64,000 nucleotides of DNA, from positions 1 to 64,000 of the forward strand of contig DXCU01000003.1 of NCBI GenBank assembly GCA_019115845.1, in the 5' to 3' direction. The notes under the pieces are model-generated. The model made no database searches and had not been told where the DNA came from. It saw only the letters and a list, made by a program, of their open reading frames with translations. Both the position numbers and the translations under genes were made by a program. Positions 56,357-56,807 of this stretch are shown here, piece after piece (the first letter of the stretch is position 1; each line of letters opens with the position of its first letter). The DNA comes from Candidatus Rubneribacter avistercoris (GTDB lineage: Bacteria; Actinomycetota; Coriobacteriia; Coriobacteriales; Eggerthellaceae).

Positions 56357-56396
56357 GCGCAGCCTCCTTTATATGTTCGCGCGCCGCCGCGCGCTC

Positions 56397-56424
56397 TGGA
56401 CAATCGTGCGATGCTTGTTATAAT
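56397..56424 (+). promoter_or_regulatory. Promoter of the small RNA between leuB and leuD
   Basis: TGGACA (56397-56402), a 16-base spacer and TATAAT (56419-56424). It faces away from leuB, and no protein gene follows on the plus strand. Confidence 0.7.
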
Positions 56425-56430
56425 GTGGGT

Positions 56431-56515
56431 GCCGGCGAAGCCCGCGGTCATTAGCTGGGCGGGCGGCGCAGGTACTTAGTTGGGGCGGTAGCTGCTACTA
56501 CCGCCTTTTTCTTTT
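56431..56515 (+). ncRNA. Small RNA convergent with a small membrane-peptide gene
   Basis: An ~85-nt transcript is predicted from the TATAAT at 56419 to a terminator with stem ggcggtag/ctaccgcc (56484-56491 with 56498-56505) and tail tttttctttt. The last part (56498-56515) is antisense to the 3' end of the peptide gene. An 18-codon frame (starting MWVPAKPAV) begins inside the -10 box and has no ribosome site, so it is judged non-coding. It may be the antitoxin RNA of a type I system. Confidence 0.6.
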
Positions 56516-56617
56516 CCCTCCGTCATCCTTTCGCGCTTTCCATTCCCTCCATACCTCAAGGAAGAACCCCAAGATAGCGGCCACGGCAGCCGCGGCAGTG
56601 AGAATTTTCTCCACCAT
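56498..56617 (-). CDS. Small membrane peptide, candidate type I toxin
   Basis: A 39-residue peptide. A short charged start (MVEK) is followed by a hydrophobic segment (ILTAAAAVAAILGFFLEVW) and a strongly basic tail (KARKDDGGKRKRR). GAGAGGAG lies before the ATG, and a TTGAAT-N18-TAGAAT promoter lies at 56677-56706. Size and layout resemble Fst/Ldr-type toxins that damage membranes; there is no clear sequence identity. Its 3' end overlaps the terminator of the convergent small RNA, an arrangement known from some type I toxin-antitoxin loci. It lies between leuD and leuB. Confidence 0.65.
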   Translation of the reverse strand: MVEKILTAAAAVAAILGFFLEVWREWKARKDDGGKRKRR

Positions 56618-56676
56618 GGCGATCGCTCCTCTCTTAAAAGAAGCGCCGCCCGCGATCGGACTTCACCGACTTCGCC

Positions 56677-56706
56677 ATTCTATCTGTACAACGTCGTACC
56701 ATTCAA
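56677..56706 (-). promoter_or_regulatory. Promoter of the small membrane-peptide gene
   Basis: On the minus strand, TTGAAT (56701-56706), an 18-base spacer and TAGAAT (56677-56682). The spacer holds an imperfect dyad, gtacgacgttgtac. The predicted leader is ~53 bases. Confidence 0.55.
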
Positions 56707-56807
56707 GGGCGAAATCGGAAGGAGAAGGAGAAACGGAGCCGCCCGATTGCAGCGCGTCGATCGCCGCAGCCTTAGACGGCCCCGTCGCCTGGAAAACGGC
56801 GGGGCGC

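Follow-up and report, generated by a model that had tools for sequence, protein, structure and literature searches.

In the window, the 64,000-nucleotide stretch of Candidatus Rubneribacter avistercoris DNA analysed here, the gap between leuD and leuB contains a cassette that is likely to be a type I toxin–antitoxin-like module with a two-state mRNA; its toxicity, transcripts and repression are inferred. What speaks for a module is that the convergent pair is conserved, the peptide is selected, the terminator is one-sided, the ribosome site is predicted to be buried, and solo RNAs are kept where the peptide has been lost. The gene pair, the pairings and their covariation, the strand on which selection acts and a predicted change in ribosome-site exposure all have computed support.

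Layout of the cassette and its peptide

The cassette spans about 300 bases within a gap of about 451–454 bp (Table 1). Along the mRNA, its elements run in the order A, B, ribosome-site hairpin, ORF, C′, T hairpin, B′, loop and A′, and the small RNA overlaps the final 18 bases of the ORF. The interval has two promoter-like sites where shuffles gave an expectation of 0.2; the −10 box nearer consensus is that of the small RNA in 24 of 52 cassettes and that of the mRNA in 5. At the level of sequence, the transcripts not having been observed, the cassette meets the type I criterion of a cis-encoded complementary RNA with its own promoter and terminator. An initial annotation of this stretch had described two facing promoters, a 39-residue minus-strand peptide with a hydrophobic helix and a basic tail behind a good ribosome site (AGAGGAG), and a plus-strand RNA of ~85 nt ending in a terminator with ~18 bases antisense to the 3′ end of the ORF, all in a 451-bp gap; each of these claims held.

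Table 1 Elements of the leuD–leuB cassette, in positions of the window
Feature	Position	Strand	Remark
Small RNA promoter, TGGACA-16-TATAAT	56397–56424	+	11/12 consensus, extended −10
Toxin mRNA promoter, TTGAAT-18-TAGAAT	56677–56706	−	−10 conserved in cassette alignment
Toxin mRNA start (putative)	near 56670	−	predicted
39-codon ORF, putative toxin peptide MVEKILTAAAAVAAILGFFLEVWREWKARKDDGGKRKRR	56498–56617	−	behind AGAGGAG
Leader block A GTCGGTGAAGTCCG	56657–56670	−	partners A′ and, via GUCCG, C′
Leader block B CGGGCGGCGC	56643–56652	−	partner is B′ or ribosome-site strand
Shine–Dalgarno hairpin, covers AGAGGAG up to ATG	56618–56650	−	−20.0 kcal/mol
C′ element, AGGAU (CGGAU in most relatives)	56525–56529	−	alternative partner of leader GUCCG
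T hairpin, small RNA terminator	56484–56505 (terminator 56482–56507)	+	U-rich tail on + side
B′ in mRNA read-through tail	56460–56469	−	same DNA as small RNA block B
A′ in mRNA read-through tail	56431–56444	−	same DNA as small RNA block A
Small RNA, putative antitoxin, ~85 nt, two hairpins	56431–56515	+	RF01700 homologue, just under cut-off

Hydropathy averages 2.1 over a 19-residue stretch of the window peptide, whose net charge is +5; AlphaFold predicts a single helix over residues 2–35 (pLDDT 81). The consensus of the Eggerthellaceae family is M-E--L---AA-ATIAGF-LEVWRE-K-R-DD-G, in which L6, A10 and W23 are invariant. Pairs of close relatives differ by 49, 31 and 123 changes at codon positions 1, 2 and 3 (summed; the pairs are not independent), which places the frame under purifying selection, and the type I criterion of a hydrophobic peptide of <60 aa conserved as a protein is met. 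The nearest relative keeps the frame at 95% identity; loss of the frame from close relatives, which the initial annotation had named as grounds for refutation, was not seen. Searches of the peptides against Pfam, NCBIfam and PHROGs returned no credible family, and no known toxin family was matched. Collinsella and Atopobiaceae keep the RNA parts around quite different small hydrophobic peptides with basic tails; judged from sequence alone, these are too different for a function common to peptides beyond Eggerthellaceae to be shown.

When relatives were searched for the frame together with the convergent RNA, the whole cassette was found to recur at unrelated loci in many genomes, which far exceeds what a chance origin of the observed cassette would give. 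BLASTN of the interval against 60 relatives placed it at unrelated positions, with a copy 90% identical in a sister species and a second copy (C52) elsewhere in the window's own genome. Among 138 genomes of the family, 36 contain the peptide, spread over 18 of 48 genera and with up to five copies each; named loci come from Gordonibacter, Adlercreutzia, Enterorhabdus, Senegalimassilia, Slackia, Collinsella and Atopobiaceae MAGs. An RNA model built on the 3′ part of the cassette alone (R1) matched 84 of 298 Coriobacteriia genomes and 31 of 125 genera, with up to six copies per genome; in a phylum-wide sample of 198 genomes it matched four, all of the same order, and none outside that order. The cassette is multi-copy and, in the genomes sampled, confined to Coriobacteriia.

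Without a cassette, the leuD–leuB gap measures 5–215 bp in relatives (184 bp in a genome of the same genus), and it is also filled in the sister species and two other genera; being empty in some relatives and filled in others, it marks the cassette as accessory. Across three genera this gap (56357–56807 in the window; L077/L080, L081 and L101) holds two different peptide subtypes, and leuD–leuB may have been used repeatedly as one insertion site. Neighbouring genes vary at other cassette sites: a solo small RNA lies directly 3′ of an apparent moaA (L287), and a complete but truncated module lies 5′ of an apparent moaC (L093), both genes named by eye. Modules in tandem, with a few hundred bases between copies, occur in an Atopobiaceae MAG and Collinsella (L281, L194 and L107), and L101 and L093 have intact RNA parts although a frameshift or premature stop breaks the peptide frame.

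Two other roles for the peptide can be weighed against this distribution. It could be a leader peptide or attenuator for leuB, with which the ORF shares its direction, 75 nt upstream, and which the cassette precedes in several other genomes; however, the same cassette stands at many unrelated genes, the peptide is not leucine-rich and the one-sided terminator faces away from leuB. On these grounds we rejected this reading, for which almost no room is left. Alternatively, the peptide could be regulatory rather than toxic, such as a modulator of membrane stress or transport, paired with a cis-antisense RNA. Copies share sites such as leuD–leuB in several genera, toxicity is inferred only, and the lack of a match to a known toxin family also favours this view; against it, the many scattered and tandem copies, the frameshifted or truncated peptides and the solo RNAs are typical of toxin–antitoxin turnover, and we consider it unlikely.

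Competing partners of the mRNA leader

The initial annotation had seen no long complementarity to the 5′ leader of the peptide mRNA. This part failed: the leader (56643–56670) pairs with the tail of its own mRNA (56431–56469), block A with A′ and block B with B′. Its statement that the two RNA leaders have gcgggcggcgc in common in the same sense held, and its proposal that regulation works through the 3′ overlap or read-through is supported by comparative evidence. Across 52 cassettes, 98.7% of the cells of A:A′ and B:B′ are paired, falling to 35–44% when the pairing register is slid; 63 cells show double changes against 18 in shuffles, with 0 of 500 shuffles reaching 63. The most trustworthy statistic is that from the 30 distinct cassettes found via the peptide, 19 sequences added by pattern search having been picked by their arms. 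In these 30, Watson–Crick pairs make up 629 cells, G·U 74, A·C 5 and other combinations 10, with 2 cells gapped. Because RNA alone tolerates a G·U pair, which becomes A·C on the opposite strand, the ratio of 74 to 5 means that what is selected is base pairing in the strand of the toxin mRNA.

These counts bear on a further rival, a mobile element in which the inverted arms serve a transposase as terminal repeats and the peptide and RNA are passengers. The arms are indeed inverted repeats, copies are scattered and the leuD–leuB gap is empty in relatives. Against this, conserved −10 boxes lie outside the arms, and recognition of DNA would not prefer G·U to A·C changes; a search of plasmid and phage records for the cassette gave no matches, and of the viral contigs with a match to the arm pattern, six in all, none has the leader. 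A mobile element is thus very unlikely, and transposon terminal repeats were rejected on the strand asymmetry of the arm changes.

The inverted DNA arms give the small RNA a 5′ half that reads A–loop–B in the sense of the mRNA leader. Since these arms share their DNA with the mRNA tail, the small RNA is antisense to the tail and, as inferred from its sequence, able to displace the leader. The T hairpin covaries strongly, with 13–21 double changes at 7 of its 8 pairs, and is a one-sided terminator, with a U-rich tail on the small RNA side and none on the mRNA side; in the cassettes compared, no conserved mRNA terminator was found within 260 nt.

GUCCG in the leader can also pair with C′, mostly CGGAU, which lies just upstream or just downstream of the stop codon. 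Compensatory changes in this C helix appear in close relatives (GUCUG/CAGAU in L067 and GUUCG/CGAAU in L071), alongside further variants (GUCUGC/GCAGAU in L100 and GUCCC/GGGAU in L095), and its covariation was matched by 1 of 500 shuffles; the helix is short, at 4–5 pairs, and weak or missing in some members. In Atopobiaceae C′ falls after the stop codon, which argues that it is kept as RNA. In 28 of 30 cassettes the U of GUCCG meets a G of A′ in a wobble pair, and with C′ it forms a U–A pair; the pairing with C′ would explain why this leader base stays U. Block B likewise has a second partner, the strand from the Shine–Dalgarno sequence to the ATG, and the two leader folds exclude each other in part. 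The segment at 56506–56530 of the window, GGATGACGnnGGG, is kept as RNA even where the frame has shifted or ended; for the portion beyond C′, GACGnnGGG, no partner is known.

In predicted folds of 52 cassettes, the full-length mRNA closes, with an A:A′ probability of 1.0 and a median of 0.99 for B:B′, and removal of the tail lets the C helix form (median 0.97). The ribosome site is predicted to be unpaired at a median of 0.27 with B:B′ and 0.008 without the tail, a difference in the same direction in 48 of 52 cassettes (p 2e-8); the values for the window mRNA are 0.22 and 0.00. The Shine–Dalgarno hairpin, for which Table 1 gives the energy in the window, lies between −11 and −24 kcal/mol in relatives, and the type I criterion of a ribosome site sequestered in the primary mRNA is met by the predicted fold. 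These exposures are thermodynamic model estimates, low in both states and with a small effect in some members.

In the mechanism we propose, the minus-strand mRNA would encode a short membrane-helix peptide that is inferred to be probably toxic when overproduced. In state 1, B would pair with the ribosome-site strand and GUCCG with C′, hiding the ribosome site; in state 2, transcription of the tail past the T hairpin would allow A:A′ and B:B′ to form, stripping the lower stem of the ribosome-site hairpin. By occupying A′–B′ in the tail the small RNA would restore state 1 of the mRNA, and RNase III would probably cut the long duplex that the two RNAs form. Toxicity, the identity of the translated state, the small RNA's action as repressor and the role of RNase III are all inference only.

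For the exact polarity of the switch, which rests on model prediction, we judge the case nearly, but not quite, evenly balanced. No conserved mRNA terminator follows A′, leaving formation of the tail's 3′ end unexplained, and the direction could be reversed because hok and AapA use 5′–3′ closure as the OFF state. A fully opposite, hok/AapA-like version of the module would have the closed full-length mRNA dormant and activated by 3′ trimming, with the small RNA acting mainly through RNase III decay at the 3′ end. In its favour, 5′–3′ closure keeps hok and AapA mRNAs inert (PMC6733600), and the absence of a defined mRNA terminator fits 3′ processing; however, the tail does not hide the ribosome site, its removal is predicted to bury the site further, and the small RNA matches the 3′ end rather than the 5′ leader as in hok and AapA. 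We regard this version as improbable, although it is the chief rival to the mechanism proposed.

Collinsella-1 and solo copies of the small RNA

Collinsella-1 (RF01700) was described in 2010 as a probable RNA, not cis-regulatory and without a function (PMC2864571). The small RNA strand of relatives scored 125.1, 48.8, 37.8 and 35.5 bits against this Rfam model, above the cut-off, and across relatives with a cassette the range was 35–222 bits, on the strand opposite the peptide. The window itself falls just short, at 33.0 bits where 35 are required (E 6e-7 when 431 bases were searched); the match covers the small RNA. RF01700 did not come up when 3 kb were scanned. At E ≤ 1e-4, RF01700 matched 44 of 296 Coriobacteriia genomes and 0 of 14 control genomes. 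The small RNA aligns hairpin by hairpin to the 3′ half of the model; the 5′ half corresponds to promoter and upstream DNA.

Among the 17 top Collinsella loci, five are full modules with a 30-residue peptide (MNLFLEILRLSMYVTGIARNLYSIWREYKQ in four of the five) whose B/B′ arms covary (GGGCAACGC/GCGTTGCCC), and twelve lack leader and peptide. For one of the twelve (L320) the search motif was not found and its status comes from reading the sequence; leaders were detected by a pairing-based scan, and a few short or edge loci may be miscalled leaderless. At one shared Collinsella locus, a complete copy (L319) can be set against solo copies (L313, L314 and L318), homology starting at the 3′ end of the small RNA. 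The small RNA thus outlives the peptide, as would be expected of an antitoxin if related toxins remain. Most of the high-scoring Collinsella-1 loci (L313–L329) are solo RNAs, with sister species keeping the peptide at the same locus. The window's genome also holds a solo small RNA without leader or peptide (G000:C82:10517-10626; L083, L273), beside what was identified by eye as the gene of a RelE-like type II toxin; on paper, this solo RNA can pair with the window mRNA.

A bolder reading, towards which we lean slightly more sceptical than convinced, is antitoxin action by leader mimicry, in which the small RNA, with its same-sense copy of the leader, would win the competition for the mRNA tail and force the toxin leader closed. 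This scaffold would be common to many unrelated-looking peptides across the class, and solo copies, Collinsella-1 proper, would be free-standing antidotes against related modules.

Relation to known type I systems

The type I toxin–antitoxin reading of the initial annotation is supported by anatomy and evolution, short of proof, toxicity and transcription being undemonstrated. A 2025 paper states that, until its own case from cyanobacteria, the known type I systems came from Proteobacteria, Firmicutes and Tenericutes alone (PMC12390103), and we found none from Coriobacteriia in the open-access literature searched. If true, the module would be the first type I system in Actinomycetota, in common gut bacteria; it would give Collinsella-1, functionless since 2010, a testable role and its first proposed function, and would add a switch built on a single leader segment with two covarying partners, for which the mutants to make are clear.

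In the fst/RNAII system (par of pAD1) the toxin mRNA and the small RNA also converge, and a terminator hairpin lies where they overlap; its repeats are direct and its RNA leaders complementary. Unlike in fst/RNAII, the arms here are inverted, the leaders are identical in sense rather than complementary, and the terminator is not bidirectional, with a U tail on the small RNA side only; membership of fst/par was rejected on these points.

The systems bsrG/SR4, txpA/RatA and bsrE/SR5 of Bacillus subtilis likewise combine a small hydrophobic toxin with a convergent antitoxin RNA antisense to the 3′ end, a criterion that the small RNA meets here. In bsrG/SR4, binding at the 3′ end extends Shine–Dalgarno base pairing from 4 to 8 bp (PMC6562991); a comparable strengthening of ribosome-site pairing rests here on the predicted fold only. 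The module differs from this group in its Actinomycetota host, in the absence of any sequence relation found or mRNA terminator seen, in its conserved leader–tail helix as a switch, and in a small RNA that repeats the toxin leader in the same sense.

With hok/Sok and aapA/IsoA the module shares long-distance 5′–3′ pairing in the toxin mRNA, the criterion typical of that group, and competing folds (PMC6733600). The antitoxins of those systems target the 5′ part of the toxin mRNA. That mode was rejected here, since the small RNA is complementary to the tail and to the last part of the ORF and has the sense of the leader; and whereas their closed form hides the ribosome site, the closed form of the present mRNA is predicted to expose it.
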